33,272 bases of DNA from assembly GCA_013388835.1 (NCBI GenBank), contig JACAEL010000017.1, forward strand, positions 1 to 33,272. The letters are read 5' to 3'. Of the stretch, positions 7,944 to 25,972 are shown piece by piece. The position numbers were made by a program, and so were the translations under genes. Below the pieces are notes generated by a model. That model was not told where the DNA came from. It ran no database searches and saw only the letters and a list, made by a program, of their open reading frames with translations. Positions within the stretch are counted from its first letter, which is position 1, and the number at the start of each line of letters is the position of its first letter. This DNA comes from Candidatus Thorarchaeota archaeon (lineage in GTDB: Archaea > Asgardarchaeota > Thorarchaeia > Thorarchaeales > Thorarchaeaceae).

Positions 7944-8849
7944 CTATGTGAAGGTCCTCATGACGAGGTCCCACCGGTGCTGCACGAAGGCCTCTAGCTC
8001 AGCCAGTTTCTTGTCATCTCGTGTGGGCTTGAAGAGATGCGCGAATCGGCCCTGAAGCTTGAGGAACTCGTCGATGGGCTTTCTCTTTGCAGGGTCGCGA
8101 TATCTCTCACTAACAGGGTCCAGCTTGAACTCCTCTCCAATGCGCTCCCACATTATCCAGTAGCCGGTCTCGACAGCCAACTTGCCAATCTCGACGCCCT
8201 TCTCAACAGGGTAGTTCCACGCTTGAGGACAGGGCAGGAATATGTGAATGAACTTCGGTCCGCGTATTCCCCGTGCTCTCTGAAACTTCTCGTAGAGGTC
8301 TCTTGGATACGCAGCGTTGGCGGTCGCCTGATATGCTGGCTCGTGAGCAGCAACGACAAGGTCCAGTAGCTTCTCAGGTTCGGTCTTGCCATGCCAGGTC
8401 GTTGATGTCTGGGCGTGCAGGGGTGTGGCTCCAGAGCGCTGTGTACCGGTGTTGGAGTAGACCTGGTTGTTGTAACACACGTAAAGAAAGTCCGTCCGCC
8501 GCTCAAATGCACCACTGAGTGCCTGAATCCCTATGTCGAATGTCCCGCCATCACCGGCCCACACCATCACGGTGGTGTGGTCGTTCCCCTTTGCCGCAAG
8601 GGCCGCTCGCACGCCGCTCGCAGTGGCTGCCGCTGCAGCGAAGCCTGTGTTGAGGACAGGCACCGCAAGCCCTGTCTTGGGCCACAGGGACTGCACAACA
8701 CTGGTGCAGCAGGCAGGGACGACCTGTATGACATCTCCTTCCAGAGCTTTGTGCGCGTGTCGAAGAGCGACCATGTCCTGGCAGCCGGCACACGCGGCAT
8801 TGCCCTTCAGCACATATTCCTCGAGAGGCATCTCCTTTATGGAAACCAT
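7944..8849 (-). CDS. porB: 2-oxoacid:ferredoxin oxidoreductase (pyruvate synthase-type), beta subunit
   Basis: The beta subunit binds thiamine diphosphate and an iron-sulfur cluster and carries out CoA-dependent oxidative decarboxylation of pyruvate or a related oxoacid, or the reverse. The 301-residue chain shows the N-terminal CAGCQ and ACCTS cysteines for the cluster, the ThDP motif GDGGTFDIG followed by NNQVYSNTG, and QRSGATP, all typical. The start at ATG 8849 has GGTGAT 6 nt upstream; another in-frame ATG lies at 8861. It follows porA with an overlap or gap of a few bases and is the last gene of the operon, convergent with the peptidase gene. Whether pyruvate or another oxoacid is the substrate cannot be read from the sequence. 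Confidence 0.93.
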   Translation of the reverse strand: MVSIKEMPLEEYVLKGNAACAGCQDMVALRHAHKALEGDVIQVVPACCTSVVQSLWPKTGLAVPVLNTGFAAAAATASGVRAALAAKGNDHTTVMVWAGDGGTFDIGIQALSGAFERRTDFLYVCYNNQVYSNTGTQRSGATPLHAQTSTTWHGKTEPEKLLDLVVAAHEPAYQATANAAYPRDLYEKFQRARGIRGPKFIHIFLPCPQAWNYPVEKGVEIGKLAVETGYWIMWERIGEEFKLDPVSERYRDPAKRKPIDEFLKLQGRFAHLFKPTRDDKKLAELEAFVQHRWDLVMRTFT

Positions 8850-8854
8850 TGCAA

Positions 8855-10030
8855 TCACCACAAGTCGTGCCAGGTCTCTTCGCGACCAAGCTCACCCTTT
8901 TCCATGGCGTTCCATGTGTCCATTATGATCTCCTTGATGTCAGCCACAGTGACATCGCGCCCTCCCAGACCACCAATATAGCTCTTTACGAGCGGACGGT
9001 GTTTCATTGGGTAGAGCGCTGCCCGGATATCGTTCACCACTGGCCCACCAAAACCATAAGACACGCTACGGTCGAAGCTTGCAAATGCCTTGACTCTTCC
9101 ACCCAGTTCTCGGATTCTCCTGATGGGGAATGGCCTGTACATCCGAATTCTCGCATTTCCGACCCTGTAGCCCTCTTCACGAAGCTGGTCGATTGCGTCC
9201 TTCGCCTCCGCCCCGATGGTTCCCTGGGAGGTGAAGATCACTTCGGCATCCTCGCATTTGTAACAGTCAATTGGGCCTCCGAAGTGCTTGCCGAAGAGCT
9301 TCCTGTATTCCTCTTCGAGCTCTTCATAGACCGCCTGCGCCGCAAGGGCCCCCTCGTGCATCTGATAGCGAAACTCCTGATAGTACTCGGGAAACACGAT
9401 GTTGCCGTGAGAGACCGGATTGGCAGGGTCCATCACCCAATGAGGTGGCTTGTACGGCGGCAGGAACTTGTCCACCTCCTCGGGTTCGAGGTAGTCGTAG
9501 GAGGAGACCGTGTGGCTCAACACAAATCCGTCCGCGTTGACCATCACGGGCATCAGCACTCGTGGATCCTCTGCAAGCCTGAAACTCTGGATTATGGTGT
9601 GATAGAGCTCGTCAACACTCGCGACGTAGAATTGAATCCAGCCTGTGTCCCTCTTTGACATTGAGTCGTCATGGGTCACATGGATGTTCCAGCTGGGACT
9701 CACAGACCTGTTGATGTTCGCGAGTACGATGGGGAGCCGTGCCGCCGCCGCCCAGTGGAGTGCTTCGTCCATGTAGAGCAGACCGTTGGAGGAAGTCGCA
9801 GTGAATGCCCGTGCCCCAGTCGAGCTCGCGCCAATGCAGGCGAACATCGCCGAGTGCTCAGACTCCACTCTGATGAACTGGCCCTTGTAGATTCCCTCTT
9901 CATTCAGATATGCCACTTGCTCAGGGACAGTCGTTGCAGGTGTGATGGGGTATGCAGCCACCACTTCCACTCTTGCGGACACTACCGCTCTGGCAGCAGC
10001 ATAGTTGGCGCTCATCAGTTCTGTCTTCAT
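8855..10030 (-). CDS. porA: 2-oxoacid:ferredoxin oxidoreductase (pyruvate synthase-type), alpha subunit
   Basis: The alpha subunit supplies the pyrimidine-binding part of the ThDP site. Visible family motifs are the N-terminal AYPITPATTVPEQ with ESEHSAMFACIGASSTGARAF (the glutamate and the loop next to ThDP), TSSNGLLYMDE, and the VMVNADGFVLSHT segment. The second domain carries VIFTSQGTIG and RMYRPFP. At 391 residues it is full length. It overlaps porD by 4 nt (ATGA: porA start and porD stop), which implies translational coupling. Only one phase of the electron-transfer system is here: the reduced ferredoxin partner is not encoded next to it. Confidence 0.94.
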   Translation of the reverse strand: MKTELMSANYAAARAVVSARVEVVAAYPITPATTVPEQVAYLNEEGIYKGQFIRVESEHSAMFACIGASSTGARAFTATSSNGLLYMDEALHWAAAARLPIVLANINRSVSPSWNIHVTHDDSMSKRDTGWIQFYVASVDELYHTIIQSFRLAEDPRVLMPVMVNADGFVLSHTVSSYDYLEPEEVDKFLPPYKPPHWVMDPANPVSHGNIVFPEYYQEFRYQMHEGALAAQAVYEELEEEYRKLFGKHFGGPIDCYKCEDAEVIFTSQGTIGAEAKDAIDQLREEGYRVGNARIRMYRPFPIRRIRELGGRVKAFASFDRSVSYGFGGPVVNDIRAALYPMKHRPLVKSYIGGLGGRDVTVADIKEIIMDTWNAMEKGELGREETWHDLW

Positions 10031-10341
10031 GTGTCTGCCTCCTCACCCACACCTGTTCTGACCATCTCGATACACTTTCTGGGGCAGACCTGAGCACATA
10101 TCCCACAGCCCTTGCAGTAGTCAAGATCAATGTGGGGGGTCCCGTCCTCATCCACAGAGATTGTCGCTTCGGGACAGTGCAGCCAGCAGGTGCGGCACTT
10201 GCTGCAGTTCTCATGGTCTATTATGGGGTCGAACGTCCGCCAACTCCCTGTCTTTCCTGTGGACCCAATCACAGGTAGCGAATAGGAAGTCTTCGGCATG
10301 TCGGCCCTGCTCTTTGGTTCGGTGTTTACCTCGTTGACCAA
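10027..10341 (-). CDS. porD: 2-oxoacid:ferredoxin oxidoreductase, delta (ferredoxin-like) subunit
   Basis: The product has a KTGSWRTFDP lead-in, as in known PorD proteins, followed by two 4Fe-4S motifs: C-x2-C-x2-C-x3-CP starting at CSKCRTC and CKGCGICAQVCP. It passes electrons from the catalytic subunits to ferredoxin. The start is uncertain. TTG 10341 has GAGGT with 8-nt spacing and gives 104 residues, close to the family; ATG 10299 (90 residues) and TTG 10368 (113 residues) are alternatives. It is the first gene of the operon. A TATA-like CTTAAGT at about 10391-10397 lies upstream. The gamma subunit gene that usually accompanies delta, alpha and beta is absent from the window. Confidence 0.9.
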   Translation of the reverse strand: MVNEVNTEPKSRADMPKTSYSLPVIGSTGKTGSWRTFDPIIDHENCSKCRTCWLHCPEATISVDEDGTPHIDLDYCKGCGICAQVCPRKCIEMVRTGVGEEADT

Positions 10342-10389
10342 GAGAATTGACCTCGTGAACCTTGACAAGAGCGGCTCCGGCTGTAAATG

Positions 10390-12068: not shown

Positions 12069-12464
12069 GCACAGACTCTGTTTCCCAATACTGCCCGCCT
12101 GCGTGCAGACTGTACCTGAAAGCCGACGATTAATCGAACAGCCCTCTCCATAAGAAACCTTCATATCTCCAGTTTCCGGAGGACCAGTCGAACATCGCTC
12201 TCGCAGGTGACATACATATAACCAGCATTGGTGCTTGGTTTCCTGACGACTGGTGCACTGCCCGAGGTCATGACGGACTATGAACACTCATGCCCCACAT
12301 ACGCTGACAATAAGGATTGACACGACAGTGAGTCTTCATGCCAACCGCATTTGGGAAGCAGGCGCTCAGTGCCCAAGAGGCTCCTTGACGCTGCCCGCCC
12401 AACGGTGGACGCCACAAGGTCAGATTCGCGTCATGCTGTTCGCGTCTGAGGAGGGAGCGTCTGA
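12069..12464. other. Long leader/intergenic region before the giant surface protein gene
   Basis: About 396 bases lie between the DUF2299 stop and the GTG of the giant gene. A TATA-like ACATATAAC sits at about 12212-12220, roughly 245 nt before the start, so the mRNA may have a leader of about 220 nt. A 62-codon frame (12280-12468) lies in that leader and its TGA overlaps the GTG start. It has no recognisable motif. GAGGAGG at about 12448-12454 is a strong ribosome site for the GTG at 12465. Confidence 0.45.
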
Positions 12465-15400
12465 GTGAAGAGGCTTGTTGTCGTACTGGTATTTGTGGCA
12501 GCGCTCGTGTCAATGCCTGTCACACCCGTTGCACTCCCCACTGACGGCATCACCGCATCCTCCACCCCCACACTCGACCCGTATGAGGGGCCTGTCACAC
12601 TCCTCTCACAGGCCGGTGCGTCCGGCGCAGACATGGCCGGCGTCGCTTATATGTCCCGCACACTGACCGGGCAGCAGCTTGCCATCCTGAACACCTACGC
12701 CACACCCGCTGCACACAACGGGACGCTTGACCTCTCCACCCACCTGATACCCGGGTGGACACTGTACAGGGTCGACATGAGCCTTCAGTCGCTCACCGCA
12801 CTCCCTGAGAGAGCTGTCGTCGGTGTGCCATCGCCGGACAATAGTACCAACTTCGCAATACGCAAGTATGATACCGACACCTACTACAGCCAGTTGGCGC
12901 AGGGCTTCTACAACAGGCCGCATGATGGGCGACTGGCCAACTACTCGCTGTACTATGACTCTCCCATATACGACCCCAGCACGTATGGCACCGCCTACTT
13001 TGTGGTCCGGTCTGCGCCCTCTGCCACCAACATGACCGTTCCAGTGGCCATAGACGACAACGGGGGCACATCCAGGTGGGTCACGGTCTCAGTCACTCAG
13101 AGCGTGACTCTCTCGGCCAACACACAGTACTTCACCGTGATTGACGGCTCCGCACTCGTCGAGGTGTCTGACTATTACCCGACGATTCGGTGGCGGGCGG
13201 AGCCCTCAACAGGCTCATTCGACACATACCGATACGACACATCACCACCCCCGGGGTGGAGAGGCCCACTGAATGGCTACGAGGCGTATCTGCGCTACGT
13301 CTACACTCCATGGAACACGACGTCTGGGTCAGCACTGACCTTCTCCGACCCGCAGAGGACTGCGCTGCGAGGCAACTCCACACCGCTGTCGGGGTCCACA
13401 TGGTCGTTCACCAGTGCATCGAACAACATCACACTGTTGCGGTTCGACTCGAACCTGTCCGTCACGGTCGGTCACAGCATGACCCTGTGGTACTCCAGGT
13501 CTGTCACAACGAACACGCTCTGGGACGTCCCGACGTCCGGTCAGGCGGTGACATGGAACCAGACTCTCACGCTCAGCTACCCCTCGATTCCCACAGGGAC
13601 GGTCTCTCGGTTCGTCAACCTGACGCGGATGACCGACTGGACGCCCACCGGCCTCTATCTGGGGACCTCCACGACTGACCATGACGAGTACACGCTGTAC
13701 GGAAAGACGGTAGTCTGTGCAACCATGGGCAATGGCACCTGGACAATGGCCTACTCCGCCCACAACTATGTCACGGCCATAGACTCAGCCGCCTCCGTGG
13801 TGATGACCGGAGCTCTTGGCACGACGACACACTTCAGAGACGCCATGTCCGTCCCTGTGACCACCGGGAGTTCGAACCTCACTGTCTGGAGGGGTGGCTC
13901 AGTGGTGTCCAACCCGGCAAATGAGAGCGAGGCCGATGGCACTCGGGCCTACTCTTGGGTCCCAACCTCATGGGGCGTCACACAGAACGGTCTCTATCGG
14001 ATAGAGGTGTTCTGGGCGAACGGCACAGAGGCAGGGTATCGTACGCGGGACGTGGTGGTCTACTATCCGACGACACTGACCGCCACACAGAGCGCCATTG
14101 CAGCCCACACCGACAGCACCTTTGACATTCGAGTCTACTACAATGACACCTTCACTCCACAGGGCCTGACGGCGCCTGCAGCTGCCGTGGTGTACTCGTT
14201 CGACGGAGGACCCAACACAGCGATGACCGACCTGTCGAACGGCACATGGACCGCCACGGTCTCGACAGCGGGCAAGACCTCAGGAGCATACACGGTCTCA
14301 GTGTATGCATCAGGTTACGCCCTGCAGAATCAGACGACTGATATTGATGTACAGCTCACTTATGACACGCAGTCGCTGGCAGTGAGCTGGTCGAACGGCA
14401 ACACAGTCACATATGTGGACAGCACCCGACTGGTGGTCGCCTACAGGTCTCTGAACGGCACGCCTGTGCCCGATGCAGTGGTCAATGTGACCGACGGCAC
14501 CACCTACTGGACGCTCGCATGGTCGGTCTCAAGCGGGACCTACAACTTCACGTTCGACGGTGACATGGACCCGCCCGGTCTTGGTGCTCACGCTCTGACC
14601 ATCAACGCGTGGAAAGCGGGGTATCAGGCACGGACAGCCGCCACCTCTCTGACGATCAACACCGCCCCCACAGGCATGACGGTCTCATGGCAGCCAGCGA
14701 ACGTGACCATCTACTACACCGAGTCGCTCAACCTGACCGTGGACTACACGTACTCAGGTGGCGATGTCCCGAGCTCGGGTGCTCAGGTCAATGTGACGAT
14801 TGGCACGCACTTCTACGTTCTCACCTACACGGGCACGGTCTGGGTGGCCACCATACCGGGTGGTGACCTTGGACCCGGCACATTCACGGCGGACATCAGC
14901 GCGTGGCGACACGGCTACGACCACGCCACGAACACCACGGTCGGCATCACTGTGAAGCCAAGTCCCAACATGTTCTGGGTGGTGTGGGAGCCCTCCGGCC
15001 CCTCAATGACCTATGCGGAGACGCTCAACATCACAGTCTGTTACACCTACGCATCGGAACCAGTGCCGGGGGCCACGGTCCGGCTGTACCTGAATGGCAA
15101 CAGGGTGTATGACCTTGTGCTTGGAGGGGACAAGTTGTGGCACCTGTCCCTCTTGGGACCTGTCGTTGGGCTTGGAACATGGAATGCGACGGTACTTGCC
15201 AACAGTTCCGGCTACGACACTGGACGGGACGAGCGTGTCCTCACCGTCACTGTGGACACCTGCACACTGACCCCGAACTGGGTCTCCACAAGCATATACT
15301 ACACGCATCAGACTCAGCTCAACGTGACGATACGGGACTCTCTGGGCAATGCACTGCTCGGAGCGCTTGTGAATGCGAGCTTCAACGGTGCCAACTACAC

Positions 15401-18104
15401 CATGACCCATGTCTCACACGGTCTCTATCGACTTATGCTCAGTGGTAGTGTCGGCCTCGGCTCCTACCCCATCAGGGTCTATCTGCTCCAGTATGGCTAT
15501 GTCAACTCCACCACCGATGTGTCACTCGATGTGATTGACACACCCACTACGACCACAGTCAGTCTGATCTACACGGGTCATGACGGACAGCAGTGGGCGA
15601 CACTGTACAATGACGGTGGCCTGCTCATCCGGATATACTGCGAGGATGTGGACGCCAATCCACTCACGAGCCTGACAGTGACAGTCACACTGAACTCCAG
15701 CGTGTATCCGACCACCAACCATGGGAACGGGACGTACACATTCACAGCACAGGCGACGCTGTTTGGCATCGGCACCACCATGGGGAGCGTCCAGTTCACT
15801 GTCTATGGCTACGAGGACGGCAACGAGCCTGTCTCATTCTCAGTCCTGCCGGTGCCGACCCACATCACCACCAGCATCCCGGTCCCTGCAACGATGTACC
15901 TGAACCAGACCATTGTCATCTCACTCCAGTACATAGACAACCACACCGGACTGGCCATTGATGCGGTCAGTGTGAGCATGGTCTGGGACGGCGCCCACAC
16001 ATGGGAGAAGACCGGAGTGGGGACTTACAACGTCACCTTCTCCTCACAGTCGCTGTCACTCACACAGCACGCATTTAGCGTGACACTGACCCGGACGAAC
16101 TACTCGACATCTGTCTTGAGCCAGACGGTCCTTGTCCGTGCGGTCCGTACGAGCCTTGTGGCAGCAGCGTCCTACTCGCAGTATGAGTACGAGCTGATTG
16201 AGCTTGCCGCCACGTACACCGACCTTGACCATGGCGTGGCCATCACTGGCGCCACAGTGACTGCGACGATAGGCACACAGGTCTACACGCTCACCCACAT
16301 CGGAGGTGGTGTGTACAGCCACTCGCTCAACCTGACAATCACACCCGGCTCCGGGTATCAGGTCCAGTTCTCGGCTTCAGCACCGGGCTGCAGCACCAAC
16401 TCCACAGTGTCCTCTCTGGTCGTCTATGCAAAGACGCGGGTATACATCACACTTGTGACCTTTGCTCCCGTTCAGGGTCAGTCAGTCACCGTCGGAGCTG
16501 AACTCCGTCAGAACGACACCAACACCCCGGTGTCACAGGCGGTGCTCGAGTTCTGGATTCTGGCCCATCTGAGAAACGGTACCGAGGTCTCTGCGGTCCT
16601 CACAGCAACCACCAACGCACAGGGATACGGCAGTCAGGCATACACAGTGCCCTTTGAGGCGGTCAGTGTGGACATCACAATCTACTACGCGGGTCAGGAC
16701 TCCATATGGTGGGCGGTCTATGCCGTCAAGTCAGTCACCGTGCTTTCGCAGCCCTCACTTCTGCTCCTATTCCAAAATCCCGTAATCCAGTTGGCCCTCA
16801 TCTCGGTCTTTGTCACGGTCGTGGCTCAGATGGCCTACAACCGGAGAGTCAAGCCGAAGAAGATTGCAGCACTAGCAAAGCTGAAGGCGCAGCTGAAGGC
16901 GTTCAAAGACCTCGGAGCCCTTCGCCACTTTATGGCCGTATATGCTAACCGTGGCACCTGCGTCTTCTATTACCCATTCGGAGAGCAGAGGATCCAACCG
17001 GACCTCATCAGTGGCTTCATCTCTGCAGTCACCTCAGTCTATGGTGAGATCAAGGGCGACGGCGTGCAGGGAACACTCGAGGAGATTCAGTATCAGGGGC
17101 TTCGCGTGAACAGCTACAGTGGAAAGCACATCATCGGGATTCTCATCCTGGAGGGCGAGATGTCCCCCCTATTGCGCGAGCGGCTCCAGTTCTTCGTGGA
17201 ACTCTTCGAGAGTCAGTTTGGTAACTACCTTGATGACTGGACTGGACTGATCGACTGCTTCGACCCTGAGTGGATAGTCTCAACTCTCAATACCACACTC
17301 AACTACAAGTGGCATCTTCCGCACAGGTTCGGGCATGTTGGAAAGCTCAAAGGCCTGGAAGGCAAGGTTCTCGAGGCTGTGGGAAAGATGCTTGACGAAA
17401 GAGGAGAGTTTCTCTTCTCAAGAGTACTTGAGCCTCTCTCCGACCAACTTCAGAGGACTCAGGCGGAGTTACTCAACATTCTGGTTCGCCTTGAAGAGTC
17501 TGGCGCAATCGTGCCAATCAGTGTTCAGACCGTGCTGCAGCGACAGGGTCTCGGCCTGCCAGGTATTGCTCCAACAATCCAAGAAGAGACAACAGGTGAG
17601 GCGAAGGAACCGATGTCCTCTTCTCAATCAACGGCTGATGAGATTGGGCGGGTCGAGCCAATCGCTGCTGCAGAACCAGCCAAGGGAGTCGCTCCCGTAG
17701 AAGCCTCGCATGAGACTCTCCCGCCAGACGCCGTGACTACCCGCAAGGAGGGCAGAGGCAAGCGCAGCACCCGCGCATCAAAGACTGATCACATCGAGAC
17801 TCCCACCCCTGAGAGACCAGCTGAGGAAGTGCCCGCGCCGGAGAAGCCAGTCCCTGAGAGACCAGCTGAGGAGACAACCGCTTCTGCAAAGCCAGCTGAG
17901 GAGAAGCAAGTCGAGGAGAAGCCATCGTCTGATGCGGACGCATTTCTCCGTGATGTGGAGGTCTTGCTTTCAAAAGAGGCGGATTCAGCTGGACCCAAGT
18001 CTCAGACAAAGCCGGTTGACTCAGCTGAGGAGTTTGTGCGTGAGGTCGAGGACTTGCTGAGGAAGGAACCAAAGAAGAAGAAGAAGGGCAACAGGCCTGA
18101 ATAA
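12465..18104 (+). CDS. Giant Ig-like repeat surface protein with single membrane span and cytosolic longin/roadblock-like domain
   Basis: This gene encodes 1,879 residues from a GTG start with GAGGAGG about 10 nt upstream. In order: signal peptide (about 1-24); a beta-rich ectodomain (about 25-530); about eight or nine Ig-like repeats of roughly 100 residues (about 530-1420), each with a T-V-x-Y-x-T/S-x-x-L-x-V start, GA-V-x-VT in the middle and a GTY/GLY turn; many N-x-S/T sites; one membrane span (about 1430-1455) followed by RRVKPKK (inside). A cytosolic alpha/beta domain follows (about 1484-1615; YANRGTCVFYYPFGE, then DLISGFISAV) with the beta-beta-alpha-beta3-alpha pattern of longin/roadblock folds. 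Next come a helical segment (about 1630-1690), a Pro/Glu/Lys-rich tail with ERPAEE repeats, and two copies of a helix motif near the C-terminus. The layout is receptor- or adhesin-like. Ligand and partners are unknown; the longin call is by pattern only. Confidence 0.85.
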   Translation: MKRLVVVLVFVAALVSMPVTPVALPTDGITASSTPTLDPYEGPVTLLSQAGASGADMAGVAYMSRTLTGQQLAILNTYATPAAHNGTLDLSTHLIPGWTLYRVDMSLQSLTALPERAVVGVPSPDNSTNFAIRKYDTDTYYSQLAQGFYNRPHDGRLANYSLYYDSPIYDPSTYGTAYFVVRSAPSATNMTVPVAIDDNGGTSRWVTVSVTQSVTLSANTQYFTVIDGSALVEVSDYYPTIRWRAEPSTGSFDTYRYDTSPPPGWRGPLNGYEAYLRYVYTPWNTTSGSALTFSDPQRTALRGNSTPLSGSTWSFTSASNNITLLRFDSNLSVTVGHSMTLWYSRSVTTNTLWDVPTSGQAVTWNQTLTLSYPSIPTGTVSRFVNLTRMTDWTPTGLYLGTSTTDHDEYTLYGKTVVCATMGNGTWTMAYSAHNYVTAIDSAASVVMTGALGTTTHFRDAMSVPVTTGSSNLTVWRGGSVVSNPANESEADGTRAYSWVPTSWGVTQNGLYRIEVFWANGTEAGYRTRDVVVYYPTTLTATQSAIAAHTDSTFDIRVYYNDTFTPQGLTAPAAAVVYSFDGGPNTAMTDLSNGTWTATVSTAGKTSGAYTVSVYASGYALQNQTTDIDVQLTYDTQSLAVSWSNGNTVTYVDSTRLVVAYRSLNGTPVPDAVVNVTDGTTYWTLAWSVSSGTYNFTFDGDMDPPGLGAHALTINAWKAGYQARTAATSLTINTAPTGMTVSWQPANVTIYYTESLNLTVDYTYSGGDVPSSGAQVNVTIGTHFYVLTYTGTVWVATIPGGDLGPGTFTADISAWRHGYDHATNTTVGITVKPSPNMFWVVWEPSGPSMTYAETLNITVCYTYASEPVPGATVRLYLNGNRVYDLVLGGDKLWHLSLLGPVVGLGTWNATVLANSSGYDTGRDERVLTVTVDTCTLTPNWVSTSIYYTHQTQLNVTIRDSLGNALLGALVNASFNGANYTMTHVSHGLYRLMLSGSVGLGSYPIRVYLLQYGYVNSTTDVSLDVIDTPTTTTVSLIYTGHDGQQWATLYNDGGLLIRIYCEDVDANPLTSLTVTVTLNSSVYPTTNHGNGTYTFTAQATLFGIGTTMGSVQFTVYGYEDGNEPVSFSVLPVPTHITTSIPVPATMYLNQTIVISLQYIDNHTGLAIDAVSVSMVWDGAHTWEKTGVGTYNVTFSSQSLSLTQHAFSVTLTRTNYSTSVLSQTVLVRAVRTSLVAAASYSQYEYELIELAATYTDLDHGVAITGATVTATIGTQVYTLTHIGGGVYSHSLNLTITPGSGYQVQFSASAPGCSTNSTVSSLVVYAKTRVYITLVTFAPVQGQSVTVGAELRQNDTNTPVSQAVLEFWILAHLRNGTEVSAVLTATTNAQGYGSQAYTVPFEAVSVDITIYYAGQDSIWWAVYAVKSVTVLSQPSLLLLFQNPVIQLALISVFVTVVAQMAYNRRVKPKKIAALAKLKAQLKAFKDLGALRHFMAVYANRGTCVFYYPFGEQRIQPDLISGFISAVTSVYGEIKGDGVQGTLEEIQYQGLRVNSYSGKHIIGILILEGEMSPLLRERLQFFVELFESQFGNYLDDWTGLIDCFDPEWIVSTLNTTLNYKWHLPHRFGHVGKLKGLEGKVLEAVGKMLDERGEFLFSRVLEPLSDQLQRTQAELLNILVRLEESGAIVPISVQTVLQRQGLGLPGIAPTIQEETTGEAKEPMSSSQSTADEIGRVEPIAAAEPAKGVAPVEASHETLPPDAVTTRKEGRGKRSTRASKTDHIETPTPERPAEEVPAPEKPVPERPAEETTASAKPAEEKQVEEKPSSDADAFLRDVEVLLSKEADSAGPKSQTKPVDSAEEFVREVEDLLRKEPKKKKKGNRPE

Positions 18105-18149: not shown

Positions 18150-18506
18150 TTGTCGTGGACCGTCGAGAACTACTACATGATTGGATCACGCATCCTGTGC
18201 GTCGAGATCACAGCTCCGCTCATGGACTTTCTCTTCGTTGAGATTGACGACGTCAAGGAAGCATGGTTCGAGATGCTGCGCCAGTTCGCCAATGAGCGAC
18301 CCGGCTACGAGTTGTCGTGGGCCATGGAACCAAGAGACAATAATGCGCTGGTCACAATTCGCATAGCAAAGGCAGGGCACCTTCAAGACTTCACCCGGCA
18401 GGAGGTCAGCGATGCGCTCACCGCCACAGACGCACTCTTCGACAGAGAGTCAGGTTCGACAAGGAAGGCGCCAGCGAAGCGCAAGTCATCACATTCCTCT
18501 GCCTAG
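18150..18506 (+). CDS. Small protein of unknown function (118 aa)
   Basis: I do not recognise this protein. It has an alternating beta/alpha core (RILCVEITAPLMDFLFVEIDDVKEAWFEML, split here by helix-like residues) and a strand NNALVTIRIAK, then a basic serine-rich tail (RKAPAKRKSSHSSA). It looks soluble. The start is a TTG with AGGAG 9 nt upstream; ATG 18177 is an alternative. It follows the giant surface protein gene by about 45 nt on the same strand and is probably co-transcribed with it, so it may work with that protein's cytosolic part (inference). Its end overlaps the end of the convergent LarA-like gene by 18 bases. Confidence 0.7.
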   Translation: MSWTVENYYMIGSRILCVEITAPLMDFLFVEIDDVKEAWFEMLRQFANERPGYELSWAMEPRDNNALVTIRIAKAGHLQDFTRQEVSDALTATDALFDRESGSTRKAPAKRKSSHSSA

Positions 18507-19769
18507 CACAGGCACAGTACTGCCACCGTCTGGGATGACTGCTACTGTAGAGTCCTGTCCGGCAATGGTCAGAGCAACCTCGACACCCTCGTCAGGGTCC
18601 TTCACATGTTCTGAGTGAAGTCGTTCAACCACCATGCCCGCCCTCAGCCTCGTACACAAGACTACTCTGCGCGACTCGAGGACTCGCCAGAAGTACCAAG
18701 CCTTCTCCATGCCCTCGAGATACCTCAGTTCGGAGGAGAGGAGCACTTCGGAGGAGGAGCTGTTTTCGGACACCCCTCTCAGAAACCCGTCCGGGCCGCA
18801 CCCCTGTGAACACTCAGTTACCAGTACCACGACACCGTCTCGTCGCGTTGCGGCGACTCCAGCCGCCAGTGCATCCACCGAGTCATAGAGCGTCAAGTCC
18901 CTCGGTGTGCCGCCTGCACTGACAACCGCAATGTCGAACAGACGGGGAATGGATGCCTCAGCAAGCCCTCTGCAGGAGTTCAAGTCGTCACACCATGCAC
19001 TCTCCGGACTTCCAACTATCAGCTTTGTGCAGTTTCCAGTCCAGTCTGGGATCGAGTTCACCGCGAGACACGGACCGGCCATAATCGCGCACTCGACGGC
19101 GTCCCTTGCACACGGCGTGTCTGTACTCAGTAGCCCCATGTTGCCGAGTGCCAGCCGCCTGTTCTTGATACGACTCCGCTCTGCAGCAAGCCCAGGGAGG
19201 ATGGACACCGGACCCGCAGAGACCCCTGTTATGAGACTTGGCCTCGCTGAAGCAATCACAATCCTGACATCGGACTCGACATATGTTCTGTCTAGCTCAA
19301 CTGGTGTGGAATATGAGGCGGTCTGGCCAATACTCACTACCTCCTCCGACCGTGAAGGGACATGCGTACTCACATGACAGCCTAGCTCCTCAATCTCCTC
19401 TGACAGCGCCCTTGGCAGTTCCACCATCAGTCCAGAGTCCAGAGTTGACGTGATGACGACGTTGGTGTTTCGAGGCCGCACCCCTCTTGAGACAAGATAC
19501 GACTGGACTGCAGACAAGACCGTGCCACCTGCGCTAATCCATCCGGGATTGTCAAGCACAATGCATCCCGATTTGTCTGGCTTCTCAGCCTCACTACCAC
19601 CAAAGATGCCCCAATGCTGCTCCAGCAAGGCCCATACATCCATCTTGACCTCCGGCAGGGCTGAAGCACTCATGGGCAGTATCTCAGCAAGACTTCTGCA
19701 TCTGTCCTTGTCAAGTCTGAGGAAACCCTCCCCGTACTTCGGGTCTAGACTCATTCTCCGATTCATCAT
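18489..19769 (-). CDS. LarA (nickel-dependent lactate racemase)-like protein lacking the known catalytic residues
   Basis: The 426-residue chain follows the LarA/DUF2088 pattern: a SIGQTASYSTPVELDRTYVE segment, VRIVIASARPSLITGVSAGPVSILPGLA where LarA has I-x-IG-x-x-x-PH-x-x-GFSGG-K-x-ILPG, and a C-terminal half with LFDIAVVSAGG, YDSVDALAAG and VVLVTECSQGCG, like the LarA LARAGG...S...L-D motifs. The His of the PH motif and the Lys that carries the nickel-pincer cofactor appear missing (AGPVS in place of GG-K), and the first-domain GtH motif reads TSTLDSG. So lactate racemization is unlikely unless other residues serve. The start MMNRRM lies about 26 nt after a TTAAG box, which suggests a near-leaderless transcript. 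No larB/C/E genes are nearby. Confidence 0.75.
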   Translation of the reverse strand: MMNRRMSLDPKYGEGFLRLDKDRCRSLAEILPMSASALPEVKMDVWALLEQHWGIFGGSEAEKPDKSGCIVLDNPGWISAGGTVLSAVQSYLVSRGVRPRNTNVVITSTLDSGLMVELPRALSEEIEELGCHVSTHVPSRSEEVVSIGQTASYSTPVELDRTYVESDVRIVIASARPSLITGVSAGPVSILPGLAAERSRIKNRRLALGNMGLLSTDTPCARDAVECAIMAGPCLAVNSIPDWTGNCTKLIVGSPESAWCDDLNSCRGLAEASIPRLFDIAVVSAGGTPRDLTLYDSVDALAAGVAATRRDGVVVLVTECSQGCGPDGFLRGVSENSSSSEVLLSSELRYLEGMEKAWYFWRVLESRRVVLCTRLRAGMVVERLHSEHVKDPDEGVEVALTIAGQDSTVAVIPDGGSTVPVLGRGM

Positions 19770-19893
19770 GCTGTCTGAACGGCCCTCCTCTTAAGCTTAG
19801 CAGGTCCTCTTGCCGTTGGTTGAGGAGCTCACAGGTGGTATTAATTAGTGATTGATTTCGCCGACACTTGAGGAACATGATGGTGGTGTCAAC

Positions 19894-20619
19894 TTGAGGA
19901 GTGCAGACTGGGCGCTGGTCATCAGCCTGCTGTTGCTGCTGCTGTACTGGTTCGCAGGCTCGGCCCTGCCGTGGATGGCGAGCCCGACTGTCCTCGTCTA
20001 TCAGTGGCTTCTAGAGTTCTCATTAATGTCCGGGTACTTGGGTGCAGCAGTCATCTCCTTCTTCGGCAATGCGACTGTGCTATTCCCGTTTCCATACGTC
20101 GGAGTGCCCTACATCCTGGGGGGAGTCAGGGACCCGGTGACCATGCAGTTCGTCTTTGACCCGATGGCAATCGGTCTGGCGGCAGGAGCCGGTGCCGTCA
20201 CAGGAGAGATGACAGGCTATCTCCTTGGCTATCTGGGAGGAGAGGTCTCTCCAAAGAGCTCGGCGGCAGTCCGTTCCTTGATGTCGTCACATCCCAGACT
20301 GATCCCAGCGGTGCTCTTCCTCCTTGCAGCAACACCCATCCCCGATGACATGGTGGTCGTCCCTCTCGGTCTTGCCAAGTACGACTGGAGACGTGTGCTT
20401 GTCCCGCAGTTACTTGGCAAGTGCTTGTTCCTCACAGGGGTCGCATGGGCAGGAAGAATTAGTCTGGGCTGGGTTGATTCAATCCTGTGCTCGCTTGACC
20501 CAACAAATCCGGTCTCACGGGCTGTCGAGGTCGTGGCGATTGCACTTATTGTCGTGGTGATCTACTTCGGTGTGAGGTCCGGCGGACAGACACTCTCCTT
20601 CACAAGCCGGACGGAGTGA
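19894..20619 (+). CDS. VTT/DedA (SNARE-associated) domain membrane protein
   Basis: The product is a multi-pass membrane protein with the VTT-domain marks: a re-entrant segment with GEMTGYLLGYLGGE and a later ATPIPDDMVVVPLGLAKYDWRRVLVPQLLGK helix-loop, which corresponds to the family's PGP/P-x-G...F-x-G motif region. DedA/VTT proteins include lipid scramblases and transporters of polyprenyl phosphates. A role in archaeal lipid or dolichol-phosphate movement is possible but not shown. The start is set at TTG 19894, since a TATA-like TATTAATTAG at about 19839-19848 puts transcription start near 19865-19870 and GGTGGTG lies just upstream. The upstream TTG at 19852 would be too close to that box. 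Confidence 0.8.
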   Translation: MRSADWALVISLLLLLLYWFAGSALPWMASPTVLVYQWLLEFSLMSGYLGAAVISFFGNATVLFPFPYVGVPYILGGVRDPVTMQFVFDPMAIGLAAGAGAVTGEMTGYLLGYLGGEVSPKSSAAVRSLMSSHPRLIPAVLFLLAATPIPDDMVVVPLGLAKYDWRRVLVPQLLGKCLFLTGVAWAGRISLGWVDSILCSLDPTNPVSRAVEVVAIALIVVVIYFGVRSGGQTLSFTSRTE

Positions 20620-20859
20620 CCGACGTGGAAAGAGGACTCTGCAGACCGAATCGAATCACAACTCACACAGGGCATTTACGAGTTGGCGAGTTGTCGTACT
20701 TCTGACGGACGACTGCCCCGGCTGACGCTGAAACCGATAGACCAACATGAAGGCCCACTTCTGCTCGCCGGGCAGGGCATGGAGCGGCCGGCTGAGCCGC
20801 TCCCGCGCTGTTCATCTTCAAGTGGTGAACAATCGAAGTATGCTGGAGTTAATGCAGAC
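20620..20859. other. Intergenic region between convergent genes; no gene seen
   Basis: About 240 bases lie between the VTT gene and the DUF35 gene, which end toward each other. Open frames here are extensions or shadows of neighbours. The only structure I see is the inverted repeat at 20781-20803. Confidence 0.5.
20781..20803. repeat. Perfect inverted repeat (8-bp stem, 7-nt loop) between convergent genes
   Basis: GGAGCGGC (20781-20788) and GCCGCTCC (20796-20803) are exact reverse complements. The loop overlaps a second small palindrome (CGGCT-G-AGCCG). It lies between two gene ends, where a transcript-end hairpin would make sense. Archaea rely mainly on U-tracts for termination, and no strong T-run follows, so this may be an RNA processing or stability element instead. 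Confidence 0.4.
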
Positions 20860-21249
20860 CTAGGCGGGTCTGAACGCCAGATAGGTCTTCCCAGACTTGC
20901 CCTGCACATAGTCGAGGACAAGCCTAGTACCAAGCTTCACTTCCTGTGGCTTCAGTGGATCAAAGCCCGCCAGCCTTGCTGCCACCCGAGCTCCCTCGTC
21001 AAGTTCGACTATGGCAACAAAGTATGGGGCCTCAGCGACGAACTCGTCGGGAGCCACATGTATCACAGTAAACGAGACCAGTTTCCCCTTGCCTGAGACG
21101 CTCGTCCACGTCATCTTGCTGCCACCACAGGCGTAGCATACTCCCAGCGGTGGAGCAATGACCGCTCCACAGTCCATGCACTTGTATGCCTGAAATGCTC
21201 TCTCGGCAATCTTCTTCTTGTACTTCTCTACGCTAGGCAGTTCGCTCAT
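20860..21249 (-). CDS. DUF35 zinc-ribbon/OB-fold acyl-CoA-associated protein
   Basis: The 129-residue protein has an N-terminal helix, a C-x2-C...C-x2-C zinc ribbon (CMDCG and CYACG), and an OB-fold (GKGKLVSFTVIHVAP, YFVAIVELDEGARV). This is the DUF35/OB_aCoA family, whose members bind CoA thioesters and sit beside thiolases. In archaea one such protein bridges acetoacetyl-CoA thiolase and HMG-CoA synthase so that the intermediate is passed on. Its ATG overlaps the thiolase stop by 4 nt (ATGA), so the two are coupled and likely form a complex. There is no HMG-CoA synthase gene in the window. Confidence 0.9.
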   Translation of the reverse strand: MSELPSVEKYKKKIAERAFQAYKCMDCGAVIAPPLGVCYACGGSKMTWTSVSGKGKLVSFTVIHVAPDEFVAEAPYFVAIVELDEGARVAARLAGFDPLKPQEVKLGTRLVLDYVQGKSGKTYLAFRPA

Positions 21250-22418
21250 GCATCAGCCCTCCTGAATACGTTACACACGCATGTTGCACCCGTCCCACCG
21301 AAGTTGTGCTGTATGCCGGTCGTGTGGTTGGCGACCTGATTCTTGCCGGCCTCTCCGATTAGCTCTCTGTACACGACCACGGCCTGTTTGACACCAGTTG
21401 CCCCCACTGGGTGACCCACCGCCTTGAGACCTCCGTCAGGGTTGATTGGTCTGTCCCCATCCAGTGCAGTCACGCCATCTCTGACGGCCTTGGCACCCTC
21501 GCCGGGCTTGAAGAAGCCTATGTCCTCACTGGCGATTATCTCCGCAATGGTGAAGCAGTCATGTACTACTGCGAAATCCATGTCCTTGGGACCCAGTCTG
21601 GCCATGTCGTAGGCCATCTTGCTTGCCTTGACCGACGCCTCAAAGGAGGCAAGCTCGGTCCTGCCGGAGATGTTCATCGAGGCCGAGGCTTGTCCCGTTC
21701 CCACGATGCGCACGGGCGTGTCCGTGTACTTCTTGGCAACGTCAGCCGACGTGAGTACGACAGCCGCAGCACCATCGGAGATTGGAGAGCAGTCGAACAG
21801 CTTCAGCGGCCATGCGATGTACCTTGGTGTGAGAGCCTTCTCAAGAGTGATCTCCTTGTTGAACTGAGCATACGGGTTGGTCGAGGCGTTCTTGTGTGCC
21901 TTCACAGCCACTAGCGCCATATCCTCTTCCGTGGTCCCGTACTTCTGCATGTGTGCGACAGCTGCCATACCAAATACCCCGGGGAACGTGAGCCCAATCC
22001 CTGATTCGAAGTCGTCATCAGCTGCAGCAGCAAGCGCCTCTGTTGCCTTGCTTGTGGGAACCCCGGTCATCTTCTCGGCTGCGGCCACCAGCACGACGTC
22101 GTAGAGCCCTGACTCTATGGCCATGATTCCGGCCCTCAACGCGGTCGCACCAGACGCACACGCTGCCTCGTGTCGAGTCGCCGGCAGTCCGCGCAGACCC
22201 GCGAAGTCAGCCAGCAACGGTGCAGTATGACCCTGATGTACAAGCATCTCCGGTATGAAGCTCCCGACGAAGACAGCTTGGATGTCCTTCTTGGGGATGT
22301 CCGCATCGACTGTCACGCGGTTCACAGCCTCTGCAAACATCTCTCTGAGCGTGACACCTTCTAGCACACCGAACTTCGTCTGTGCTCCACTCACAATGCA
22401 AGTCCTCTTGAGCGGCAC
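21246..22418 (-). CDS. Thiolase (acetyl-CoA C-acyltransferase, SCP-x-like archaeal type)
   Basis: Thiolases join or split acyl-CoA with acetyl-CoA. The 390-residue chain has the nucleophilic Cys in ACASGATALRAGI, the VVHDCFTIAE His-containing motif of the SCP-x-type group, and GHPVGATGVKQ, with a VLVAAAEKMTGVP motif between. No N-terminal signal is present. The start is GTG with GAGGG about 9 nt upstream. It is the first gene of a two-gene operon with the DUF35 protein, divergent from the acyl-CoA dehydrogenase gene over 144 bases. It may serve acetoacetyl-CoA formation for mevalonate, or fatty-acid/acyl-CoA breakdown with the neighbouring dehydrogenase; the context allows both. Confidence 0.93.
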   Translation of the reverse strand: MPLKRTCIVSGAQTKFGVLEGVTLREMFAEAVNRVTVDADIPKKDIQAVFVGSFIPEMLVHQGHTAPLLADFAGLRGLPATRHEAACASGATALRAGIMAIESGLYDVVLVAAAEKMTGVPTSKATEALAAAADDDFESGIGLTFPGVFGMAAVAHMQKYGTTEEDMALVAVKAHKNASTNPYAQFNKEITLEKALTPRYIAWPLKLFDCSPISDGAAAVVLTSADVAKKYTDTPVRIVGTGQASASMNISGRTELASFEASVKASKMAYDMARLGPKDMDFAVVHDCFTIAEIIASEDIGFFKPGEGAKAVRDGVTALDGDRPINPDGGLKAVGHPVGATGVKQAVVVYRELIGEAGKNQVANHTTGIQHNFGGTGATCVCNVFRRADA

Positions 22419-22522
22419 TTCGGTTTTCCCTCGTGATTGAGAATGAGCTGCGTCAAGAATTGCACCTAATAGGAGTATCGCTTCAACTGACTCCCATCAG
22501 TATGTCACAGAATGGACAACTG

Positions 22523-22530
22523 ATTTAAGC
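22523..22530 (+). promoter_or_regulatory. TATA-like box of the acyl-CoA dehydrogenase operon
   Basis: GATTTAAGCC lies about 38 nt before the ATG at 22563, a good match to an archaeal TATA box. The same TTAAG core and spacing recur at other gene starts in the window. Confidence 0.5.
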
Positions 22531-22562
22531 CACGAGACAAGCGACGAGGCCGGTCGAATACT

Positions 22563-23765
22563 ATGGACTTTGGACTATCGGATATGGAGAAGAAGCTCTT
22601 CGAACGAGCAAAGCAGTTCACGCGCGAACACATCACGCCAAAGGCAGCCGAGCTGGAAAAGCGTGGAGAGTTCCCAATGGAAGTTGTCCAGAAGGCGTAT
22701 GAGGCCGGTCTCATGAACCTCCACATACCAACGGCGGCAGGCGGCCCGGGACTGTCTCTGCTCTGCGAAACGCTGGTCTCTGAAGCAACCGGCTATGGAT
22801 GCGCTGGACTTGCGACAAGCATAATGTGCAACAACCTTGCATTCGCGCCGCTTGTCATCGGTGCCACGACTGAGCAGTTGCAGAAGTACGTGCAGCCCCT
22901 GATCACTGGGAAACAAGTCAAGTTCGGAGCCTTTTGCCTGACCGAGAGGAAGGCCGGTTCCGATGCTGGTGCGGTTGCGACCAGAGCTGTACGTGACGGC
23001 GACGAGTACGTCATCAACGGGGTGAAGTGTTTCATCACGAATGGGCCTCAGGCGTCGCTCTTCACGGTCTTCGCCTCGACACAGCCAGAGCTCAAGAACA
23101 AGGGCATCTCTGTGTTCATGGTGCCAAAGGGCAAAGGAGTCAAGATTGGCCATATTGAGAACAAGGTTGGTCAAAACAACTCAGTCCAGAGTGAAGTAAT
23201 ATTCGAGGACGTCCGGGTGCCACAGGAGTGCCTGGTGGGCAAGGAGGGTGAGGGATTCAAGATTGCCATGAAGACACTCGACAAGACTCGTGCAGGCATT
23301 GCTGCCATCGCAACAGGCGTGGCCCAGAGAGCCGTGGACGAGGCCGCAAGGTTTGCAAACGTCCGACAACAGTTCGGACAGCCCATTGGAATGTTCCAAG
23401 GCATCAGCTTCATGCTGGCAGACATGGGTGCCAGGACGGAGGCAGCCAGGCAGCTCACAAGATATGCAGCTTGGCTTGCAGATGCTGACGCACCGGTCTC
23501 AAAGGTGTCAGCATATGCCAAGTTCTTCGCATCCGATGCTGCGATGCAGAACGCAATCGATGCAGTGCAGATAATGGGTGGCTATGGTTACCTCGATGAG
23601 TATCCTGTGGCGAAGCTGATGCGCGACGCAAAGCTGCTGCAGATATACGAAGGCACCAACCAGGTTCAGCGGGTGGTTGCTGGTGGTGCTGTGATAAAGG
23701 AGGGCGCAGGTCTAGACACTGGCTTCCATGTCAAGTATCCCGGCCGTGACGCACCTATAATGTAG
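22563..23765 (+). CDS. Acyl-CoA dehydrogenase
   Basis: The FAD enzyme oxidises acyl-CoA to enoyl-CoA. The 400-residue chain shows the three domains: N-terminal helices, the middle beta domain with AFCLTERKAGSDAGA and KCFITNGPQASLF (FAD-contacting), and the C-terminal helices with RQQFGQPIGMFQGISFMLADM and IMGGYGYLDEYPVAKLMRD. The catalytic base is the Glu of LLQIYEGTNQVQR, the short/medium-chain position. It has the usual length. It opens a five-gene rightward run. No ETF genes are seen, and the next gene is a cysteine-rich Fe-S protein, so electrons may go to that protein or to ferredoxin (inference). Confidence 0.95.
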   Translation: MDFGLSDMEKKLFERAKQFTREHITPKAAELEKRGEFPMEVVQKAYEAGLMNLHIPTAAGGPGLSLLCETLVSEATGYGCAGLATSIMCNNLAFAPLVIGATTEQLQKYVQPLITGKQVKFGAFCLTERKAGSDAGAVATRAVRDGDEYVINGVKCFITNGPQASLFTVFASTQPELKNKGISVFMVPKGKGVKIGHIENKVGQNNSVQSEVIFEDVRVPQECLVGKEGEGFKIAMKTLDKTRAGIAAIATGVAQRAVDEAARFANVRQQFGQPIGMFQGISFMLADMGARTEAARQLTRYAAWLADADAPVSKVSAYAKFFASDAAMQNAIDAVQIMGGYGYLDEYPVAKLMRDAKLLQIYEGTNQVQRVVAGGAVIKEGAGLDTGFHVKYPGRDAPIM

Positions 23766-23798
23766 TACGCGAAGAGAGAAATCCAGGTGGGGTCTCCT

Positions 23799-24602
23799 GT
23801 GACACGTCCGGCGACCCCGCCCCGTCTCATTCGGCGAGTGCTGCTGTTTCTGCTATCATATCCCAGAGTCGGGCGTGCTGTCTCGACACTCCTCGGAGCA
23901 CTTGAGGTCCCACTTCTGGACACAATCTCGTTTCTGGAGCAGCACACCCGTGTCTCATTCTGCACGATGATGCGAAGTTTCACGAGAGTCTACGGCAGTC
24001 GCGTGATTCCCCTCGATGTCACACTCGGTCTGACCCCGGTTCTATCACCGACCGAGGAAGTGCTCCAGCTGGTACAGCGTGTCGAGAGTCTTGCGATAGG
24101 ATACTGCTACTGCCGGACAAAGTACAGAAACTGTCAGAACGAGCTCTGGACTTGTATCCATGTGGGGACGGCTCAGAGCATCACAGAACTCTCAAGGCGA
24201 CTGCCGATGAGACCGGCCAGTCTGCAGGAAGTCGAGGACCTGATCAGAAGGTGCGACCGTGCCGGGCTTGTGCATCAGCTCATCACCGCCCCGACGAGCC
24301 AGTATGTCTACGTCATCTGCAATTGCTGTCCCTGCTGCTGTGTAATGCTCCGTAGCGCAATTCGATATGGAGTGAAGAACACCGCCCTCGCCAGCAGTTT
24401 CATTTCCGAAGTGGACTTTGCAAAGTGCACTGCGTGTGGGGAGTGTGTACGGCGATGTCACTTCGGGGCCAGACAACTGAGTGACAAGAGACTCACTCAC
24501 ATCCCGGAGCTCTGCAGCGGGTGTGGGCTGTGCGTGAGCAGCTGTGCCGCTGGTGCGACGAGACTTGTCAGGCGGCAGATGTGGCTCCAGCTATCTACTT
24601 AA
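23799..24602 (+). CDS. Cysteine-rich protein with C-terminal 2x[4Fe-4S] ferredoxin domain
   Basis: The 267-residue protein has an N-terminal amphipathic part, a CYCRTKYRNC motif with a further Cys (WTCIHVG), a helix pair ending in AGLVHQ, an unusual VICNCCPCCCVML cluster, and a C-terminal ferredoxin domain (CTACGECVRRCHFGA and CSGCGLCVSSCAAGA). This combination occurs in a widespread family of 4Fe-4S proteins without a settled role. Electron transfer is likely. The N-terminal Cys motifs could hold a further cluster. The start is set at GTG 23799, with AGGTGGGG 6 nt upstream; GTG 23787 is possible. The position directly after the acyl-CoA dehydrogenase gene suggests it is a redox partner (inference). 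Confidence 0.85.
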   Translation: MTRPATPPRLIRRVLLFLLSYPRVGRAVSTLLGALEVPLLDTISFLEQHTRVSFCTMMRSFTRVYGSRVIPLDVTLGLTPVLSPTEEVLQLVQRVESLAIGYCYCRTKYRNCQNELWTCIHVGTAQSITELSRRLPMRPASLQEVEDLIRRCDRAGLVHQLITAPTSQYVYVICNCCPCCCVMLRSAIRYGVKNTALASSFISEVDFAKCTACGECVRRCHFGARQLSDKRLTHIPELCSGCGLCVSSCAAGATRLVRRQMWLQLST

Positions 24603-24630
24603 GAGCGATTTCCACGAGACCGCCACAGTC

Positions 24631-24641
24631 ATCTAAGGAGA
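24631..24641 (+). promoter_or_regulatory. Strong ribosome-binding site deciding a TTG start
   Basis: TCTAAGGAGAC ends about 9 nt before the TTG at 24651. It supports that TTG as the true start of the nitroreductase-like gene, since no in-frame ATG is found near the conserved N-terminus. A TTAAG box at about 24599 gives a possible internal promoter. Confidence 0.55.
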
Positions 24642-24650
24642 CCGGTCAAC

Positions 24651-25397
24651 TTGGACGATAATGAGACCCTGAAGACCATCAGAGAGAGGCGAGCCATTCG
24701 GGACTACGACACAGCACGGGATGTCCCGGACGAGCTGATTCGCAGAATCATTGAAGCCGGTGGGTATGCGCCCAGTGCAGAGAACCAGCAACCGTGGAGG
24801 GTCATCGTTGTGAGAGACCCCGAGCTACGAAAGTTCATTGGCCAGATTGCGGTTGACAGGACGGTACAGCTCTTTGGGAGGGCTACACCACGGCAGGAAC
24901 TTGAGCGGCGTCTCAGCTACATCGAGTCGAAGGCGTCGTTGGAACGGACAATAGAAATACTGATCACGGGACAACGCTTCGAGTATATCAAGGGAGAAGC
25001 AAAGACCAACGGAGCCCCGGTCCTTCTTGTCCTGGCTGTCGACCAGACTCATGTGGGCAACTCACAGCCTACACTTCGCGGTACCGGTGGGGTCTTTGGC
25101 TGGTCCGGACCAAGACATGCTGTGATTGCGGGTGCAATGATGATGCAGAACATGGCATTGGCAGCTGCGTCACTTGGAATCGGCAGCTGCGTCTCATCAG
25201 TGCAGTTGGACCACTTCGACGATGTCGGAGCGATATGCCAGAAGCTAGGAATCCCATTCCCTCACTGGGTACCAATTCTGTGTCTGACACTTGGATATGC
25301 AAAGGCTGAACGGACCCTCGGTCCACCTAGGCAGCCACCCGAGGAGATTGCCTTCTTGAATCACTGGGGAAAACCGTTCACCGTAGGGAGGCGATAG
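24651..25397 (+). CDS. Nitroreductase family flavoprotein
   Basis: The 248-residue FMN protein starts with TIRERRAIRDYDTARDVPDELIRRIIEAGGYAPS in pieces typical of the family (the RRAIRDY phosphate/flavin-binding arm), then AENQQPWRVIVV and a later AASLGIGSCVSSV flavin-binding stretch. The middle part holds an insertion (about 80-150) that is not part of the minimal family. Such proteins reduce nitro groups, quinones or other acceptors with NAD(P)H, or serve special reactions. The substrate cannot be told. The start is TTG. The stop is two bases before the next gene's ATG, so the two are closely coupled. Confidence 0.88.
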   Translation: MDDNETLKTIRERRAIRDYDTARDVPDELIRRIIEAGGYAPSAENQQPWRVIVVRDPELRKFIGQIAVDRTVQLFGRATPRQELERRLSYIESKASLERTIEILITGQRFEYIKGEAKTNGAPVLLVLAVDQTHVGNSQPTLRGTGGVFGWSGPRHAVIAGAMMMQNMALAAASLGIGSCVSSVQLDHFDDVGAICQKLGIPFPHWVPILCLTLGYAKAERTLGPPRQPPEEIAFLNHWGKPFTVGRR

Positions 25398-25399
25398 TC

Positions 25400-25948
25400 A
25401 TGGAGACATTGGAGATTCTACGCACCGGTTTCGTGGCGTTCATTGACGGCCTCTGGTGGGGCCTGAGAGACAACGTGGGAGCCCTGTCCATGTATGAGGG
25501 GTTCTCGTCCGCGTTCAAACAGATGGGCAAAGAGATAGCGCAGCTGTCGGGAGGAAAGGGCCCTCAGGACGGGGCCAGAATCGCCGCCCTCGCCATGAAC
25601 GCAATCGGCCTCGACGTTGGACAGGAAGGCAACAAGGTCACCGTGAGGTCCTGTCCCATATGGAACCGAATCCTTGAGCGTGGACTTGAATACGCCTTCC
25701 ACATAGAGGAGATCTGCTGGCTGCCGATGATGCAGGGCATAGGAGAGGTGGTCGGAGCAAAGCCGTCGTGTGACGCATCACTGAGGCGCATACACCTTGA
25801 GAAGGCCAAAGTCGAGTACAAGGTCTCCAAGGCAGAGGAGGCGGCGAAGCAGGGCAGGATCACGCAGGAGGAACTGCAGAAGCAACTGGCGACGCTCAAA
25901 GACAGCCTCAAGCAGCTGCCCGCGGCTGGTGGGTATCACTTCGGGTAG
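25400..25948 (+). CDS. Unknown cysteine-bearing soluble protein
   Basis: I cannot place this 182-residue protein with confidence. It has an N-terminal helical part (LWWGLRDNVGALSMYEGFSS), a middle with VRSCPIWNRILERGLEYAFHIEEICWLPMM and later KPSCDASLRRIHL, three cysteines spaced as in V4R or ATC-hydrolase-like small-molecule-binding domains, and a C-terminal coiled helix rich in Lys/Glu/Gln. There is no signal or membrane span. It begins two bases after the nitroreductase stop and ends about 24 nt before the homocitrate-synthase-like gene, so it belongs to the operon. A ligand- or metal-binding partner of the nitroreductase is possible but unproven. Confidence 0.75.
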   Translation: METLEILRTGFVAFIDGLWWGLRDNVGALSMYEGFSSAFKQMGKEIAQLSGGKGPQDGARIAALAMNAIGLDVGQEGNKVTVRSCPIWNRILERGLEYAFHIEEICWLPMMQGIGEVVGAKPSCDASLRRIHLEKAKVEYKVSKAEEAAKQGRITQEELQKQLATLKDSLKQLPAAGGYHFG

Positions 25949-25972
25949 AGAAGCCGAGGAGGTCGTGGACGC

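Follow-up and report, generated by a model that had tools for sequence, protein, structure and literature searches.

The gene at 12465-18104 (+) encodes a giant protein for which the evidence shows or strongly supports export by a signal peptide, an outside head on an Ig-like stalk, one membrane span, and a longin and a winged-helix domain inside the cell. It lies in a stretch of 33,272 nucleotides (hereafter the window), contig 17 of a Candidatus Thorarchaeota genome of 3.0 Mb and 97.6% completeness. The most likely reading of its sequence is a surface protein of type I, a receptor or adhesin from an Asgard-wide family, whose longin platform would bind small GTPases under the control of outside contact; our confidence in this reading is evenly divided.

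Layout and sidedness of the window protein

The gene is one open frame, and its features, together with a small downstream gene, are as follows.

12465..18104, + strand: whole receptor-like gene, 1,879 amino acids, GTG start, ribosome-binding-like GGAGGGAG at 12450-12457
12465..12536, + strand: signal peptide, hydrophobic peak at residues 4-22
12552..14069, + strand: ectodomain head, residues 30-535, 37-47% identical among Thorarchaeia
14070..16712, + strand: nine tandem Ig-like (Big-type) repeats, residues 536-1416, by self-trained profile and PDB 2yn3 match
16758..16814, + strand: single membrane span, residues 1432-1450, by hydropathy
16905..17261, + strand: longin domain core, residues 1481-1599, by sequence homology
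17292..17534, + strand: predicted winged-helix domain, about residues 1610-1690, by AF2 blocks, NirD-like HTH and PDB 4ch7
17562..18101, + strand: charged, low-complexity cytosolic tail, residues 1700-1879
17928..17987, + strand: tail motif copy 1 (DADAFLRDVEVLLSKE), putative docking helix, by conserved pattern in tails
18015..18077, + strand: tail motif copy 2 (DSAEEFVREVEDLLRKE), by conserved pattern in tails
18150..18503, + strand: gene encoding about 100 residues, starting 45 bases past the receptor gene, called partner for its co-occurrence with the receptor in Thorarchaeia

The hydropathy profile of the protein contains two peaks only, at residues 4-22 and 1432-1450. The former bears out the signal peptide proposed in a first-pass annotation of this DNA, and the N-terminal hydrophobic stretch is shared by the orthologues whose start is present on the contig. 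The latter, which is followed by YNRRVKPKK, agrees with the single span that had been placed near residues 1430-1455 and before basic residues. Around the span, the mean number of lysines and arginines in 49 family proteins is 1.0 before and 6.2 after it. Together, the signal peptide and these basic residues past the span place the head and the repeats outside the cell.

N-x-S/T sequons provided an independent test of sidedness, with the expectation obtained by shuffling the same letters of each region. The annotation had noticed such sites in the repeats; 41 of the 42 sequons lie N-terminal to the span, where 16.2 were expected, and the inside holds 1 against 0.9. The same counts over the 49 family proteins were 2,306 observed and 902 shuffled outside (2.6-fold), and 57 observed and 61 shuffled inside. 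Sequon richness is maintained on the outside only across these 49 members, in agreement with an outside ectodomain, which is probably N-glycosylated. The topology first proposed, with an alpha/beta domain and a charged tail in the cell, was upheld by the sequon counts and by the lysines and arginines after the span, the domain core being at residues 1481-1599. Taken together, a surface adhesin or receptor layout is present in the protein, with a signal peptide, tandem Ig-like domains outside and a membrane anchor.

Four elements are new relative to the first-pass annotation, namely the conserved head of about 500 amino acids, the winged helix after the longin, the duplicated tail motif and the partner gene. 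The head matched no Pfam family or PDB structure; its final ~190 residues are also present in proteins of other Asgard families. For the stalk, about eight or nine repeats of some 100 residues had been proposed. A profile trained on the repeats themselves resolved nine of about 95 residues each, every one detected at E values from 5e-4 to 7e-28, and gave zero matches to shuffled ectodomains. Against the PDB this profile matched 2yn3 (E 1.5e-6), and the Pfam families Invasin_D3 and Big match the repeats below cut-off. By these matches the repeats are Ig-like. Their number among Thorarchaeia is 8-11 in some and 5-6 in others. The bacterial giant adhesins to which 2yn3 belongs share the tandem Ig-like stalk; unlike the window protein, they carry neither longin nor winged helix and are anchored otherwise.

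The longin domain, the winged helix and the tail

Longin domains handle small GTPases in eukaryotic membrane traffic. The inner domain had been described as longin- or roadblock-like, and of this the longin half stood. No Pfam model matched the window domain directly. Many related domains occur in the same genome and in relatives, and they build one coherent profile. Fuz_longin_1, the Pfam model of the first longin in FUZ, MON1 and HPS1 (cut-off 26.1 bits), finds matches in 25 of 29 Asgard relatives, six of which exceed the curated cut-off, whereas all 14 control genomes lack a match. The window core matches two of the proteins above the cut-off, L170 (E 1.8e-9) and L169 (E 1.4e-7), which score 27.7 and 32.3 bits respectively with Fuz_longin_1. 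Since both match the window core and exceed the cut-off, transitive homology supports a longin identity for the inner domain. In both, an Arf-like GTPase domain comes after the longin (Arf E 1.1e-23 in L170 and 1.9e-21 in L169), so that elsewhere among Asgard genomes the longin family of the window is found joined to Arf-like GTPases. Unlike the window protein, these fusions are small and soluble, with longin and GTPase on one chain of about 300 amino acids. Longin-GTPase fusions have been reported previously (PMC10933270).

A roadblock identity was never significant. One member reached E 0.077 with Robl_LC7, and the roadblock structure PDB 9jue, at E 0.015 with family profile A2, fell to 1.3 with the broader profile A5. 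Because two homologues exceed the Fuz_longin_1 cut-off and roadblock is never significant, the sequence matches support longin as the better fit.

Two AlphaFold models of the longin core, built from 12 close sequences, had low mean pLDDT values of 52.9 and 47.3 and speak neither for nor against a longin fold; at this low confidence, their predicted elements run in the longin order beta-beta-alpha-beta-beta-beta-alpha-alpha, except that strand 3 is missing. A fold search with these low-confidence models gave nothing significant, the top match of the second being the AP-3 small chain, a longin-fold adaptor, at E 0.36. A profile search of the longin against the PDB gave weak matches only.

Two eukaryotic groups invite comparison. 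FUZ, MON1 and HPS1 supply the closest curated longin model, but these proteins are soluble subunits with several longins per chain and without signal peptide or ectodomain. Longin R-SNAREs such as VAMP7 do hold the longin within a single-span membrane protein; they differ in having a SNARE helix and a C-terminal anchor and no ectodomain, whereas no SNARE family matched anywhere in the window protein, whose longin is located after the span.

Past the longin, a winged-helix domain is predicted with good confidence. AF2 pLDDT was 77-91 over the last ~60 residues, a NirD-like HTH model matches 7 of 25 members (best E 8.8e-5), and the profile matches the NirD-like structure PDB 4ch7 (E 7e-4). Longin and winged helix together make up a cytosolic module of about 230 residues. 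The same order, longin then winged helix in one chain (residues 1481-1599 and ~1610-1690 here), occurs in Npr2/Npr3, the GATOR1/SEA subunits, which have three winged helices (PMC3521125) and are linked to small GTPases and membranes. Npr2/Npr3 are soluble and eukaryotic, whereas the window protein is a single-pass receptor with one winged helix, and among the matches listed for the members of family profiles A2 and A5 none was to the Pfam models NPR2 or NPR3.

The tail carries a motif of the approximate form D-x-F-V-x-D-V-E-x-L-L, found in 29 of 31 Thorarchaeia tails against 0.01 expected from shuffled tails, a comparison that overstates independence because the pattern was picked after the tails had been viewed and the sequences are related. 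The tails are otherwise unalignable. The motif occurs twice in the window protein and once or twice in Thorarchaeia, and a search of eight genomes gave strong matches to it nowhere but in the receptor. It resembles a putative amphipathic docking helix.

The partner gene is present in 18 of 19 Thorarchaeia genomes that have the receptor and in 0 of 6 that do not (25 genomes; Fisher p 4e-5, uncorrected for shared ancestry). In genome G015 it is present even though it lies about 670 kb away from the receptor. Its product matched no family or structure.

Relatives in Asgard archaea and genomic surroundings

The first-pass annotation had suggested a survey of Asgard genomes for Ig-like repeats, a span and the same domain; the genome searches made here covered the Asgard phylum. 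A match to the combined longin and winged-helix profile was found in 168 of 228 genomes at E <= 1e-25, a count that includes non-receptors, some members in other genera being without a span near the longin; among better-quality genomes the figure is 36 of 45. Layout was examined in 21 proteins from 20 loci chosen to span many Asgard families. A signal peptide, a long sequon-rich ectodomain and one span just before the longin were found in 20 of them, the exception being the soluble protein of locus L135. Judged by these profile matches and layouts, similar longin receptors are widespread in the phylum.

Within Thorarchaeia the longin and winged-helix pair is about 50-66% identical and is better conserved than the stalk. 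Ectodomain size varies across the family, the longest open frame having 3,033 residues. In the domain tree, whose resolution is weak, receptors cluster more than under shuffled labels (8 changes, compared with 22.2), and the receptor layout may or may not have a single origin. In a stringent all-species scan, which detects close relatives only, the nearest relatives by receptor gene were Candidatus Thorarchaeota; no relatives were found in viral contigs. A copy 59% identical to that of the window occurs in L047 (JALVPN010000133.1), whose record title reads Lokiarchaeota; the label may be wrong, and the genome (G012) is placed in the window's own family.

Several related proteins depart from the receptor layout or accompany it. 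A second giant with a similar ectodomain lies directly upstream of the receptor in L039 (91-6249), L041 (114-5876), L044 (16-6312), L049 (6049-12885), L050 (13-4986) and L054 (69-4526). The cytosolic tail of these upstream giants mostly comprises little beyond a winged helix; that of L054 has a longin-like stretch and two HTH regions. The soluble protein of L135 (5352-8420, genome G129; 1,023 amino acids) combines the same longin with an FG-GAP/BBS7-like propeller, a DDRGK/UFL1-like match, a PCI match and a zinc ribbon, and resembles a mixture of BBSome, KICSTOR and UFM1-ligase parts. L079 (8338-10614) and L080 (8392-10614) encode proteins predicted to span the membrane 13-14 times, with the same longin at the end and no Pfam match; they are possibly transporter- or channel-like proteins with a longin.

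Small-GTPase binding by the window longin is something we infer indirectly, from the Arf-like GTPase fusions of its family. The source genome has many small GTPase-sized matches. A motif scan found no small GTPase gene within the window; in loci of other Asgard families it found a few GTPase genes near receptor genes, with no obvious enrichment. One family has an Arf-like GTPase gene in a similar position, a few kilobases from receptor genes, in three of its genomes (L131, L132 and L134).

The receptor of the window is flanked (7944-10368 on the - strand, and 18489-27238) by genes for oxoacid:ferredoxin oxidoreductase, a LarA-like racemase, a VTT-domain membrane protein, thiolase, acyl-CoA dehydrogenase, nitroreductase and HMGL-like proteins, and many receptor-flanking genes keep their order in Thorarchaeia. 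Farther off, 1780-4074 (-) encodes a protein of 764 residues that shows numerous but weak similarities to zinc ribbons and fits no clear family.

Proposed role and rival explanations

Longin dimers serve as small-GTPase platforms in eukaryotic complexes (PMC10933270). For a contact-controlled GTPase platform, the following course may be proposed. The head would bind a surface or a partner cell. Receptors clustered or pulled by this outside contact would present paired longin domains at the membrane, which would bind a small GTPase of the Arf, Rab or Rag type and alter where it sits or which nucleotide state it is in. Further proteins would be recruited by the winged helix and by the tail motif, the latter perhaps together with the 100-residue partner, and outside contact would in this way set the site of GTPase-driven membrane or cytoskeleton work.

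A simple alternative is that the protein is a giant adhesin or cell-coat stalk, in which longin and winged helix form a sorting, dimerising or anchoring tail and no GTPase signalling takes place. Most of the protein is indeed stalk, with Ig-like domains akin to those of bacterial giant adhesins; surface proteins protrude from Asgard cells, which have no ordered S-layer (PMC9834061); and the longin domains of SNAREs perform tasks besides the regulation of GTPases (PMC10933270). However, it is the longin and winged-helix pair, not the stalk, that is the more conserved in Thorarchaeia, and its retention across many families goes beyond the needs of a passive anchor; we therefore regard this explanation as rather unlikely. 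It seems improbable that the protein is a membrane-tethered transcription regulator, with a winged helix that binds DNA or a transcription factor and a longin that acts as a dimer or ligand module. The presence of the winged helix would fit, as would the sibling giants upstream in several Thorarchaeia with little else in their tails, one of which has two HTH regions besides its longin-like stretch, but the longin is the better conserved part, and winged helices also mediate protein contacts in ESCRT and in Npr2/Npr3 (PMC10936438, PMC3521125).

Asgard proteins described as ESCRT-linked combine longin, Ig-like, HTH/PCI and Vps28-C domains (PMC10936438), a domain vocabulary similar to that of the window protein. 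Together with a tail motif that looks like an amphipathic docking helix, this would suit a cargo receptor for ESCRT- or coat-like remodelling whose longin and tail motif dock adaptors. The ESCRT-linked proteins, however, are defined by Vps28-C or a steadiness box, are patchy in distribution, and have not been described with a signal peptide, ectodomain and span. Vps28-C, steadiness-box and adaptin regions were not found in the window protein, nor was an ESCRT gene recognised in the window, and a cargo receptor is accordingly a very unlikely explanation.

Returning to the GTPase platform, its parts (longin, winged helix, Ig-like stalk) are known, and their order was not found described. The first-pass annotation knew of no family with such an order, and the searchable literature, which leaves subscription journals and supplements outside its scope, likewise yielded no description of a signal peptide, ectodomain, span, longin and winged helix in one protein. 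We tentatively suggest, as a possibility somewhat weaker than an even one, that phylum-wide Asgard giant receptors couple outside contact to small GTPases through a longin-winged-helix module of their own, a platform undescribed in prokaryotes and eukaryotes and a possible birthplace of modules of the Npr2/Npr3 kind.

Asgard archaea are close relatives of eukaryotes, and longin, roadblock and small GTPase genes abound in their genomes. To our knowledge, what such systems respond to in a cell that lacks endomembranes is not known. Receptors that carry a longin at the inner side of the plasma membrane offer a testable answer: part of this machinery may be at work on the cell surface and be governed there by partner contact. 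Contact with syntrophic partners is thought relevant to the origin of eukaryotes. At its small size the cytosolic module can be expressed, and the small GTPases of a genome are few enough for a full binding screen. In addition, cryo-tomography of Lokiarchaea has revealed protruding surface proteins (PMC9834061), for which the receptor family provides candidates. With longin receptors so widespread, a built-in path may lead from outside contact to the GTPase machinery in Asgard cells; if the GTPase link is true, the family would represent a new kind of receptor.
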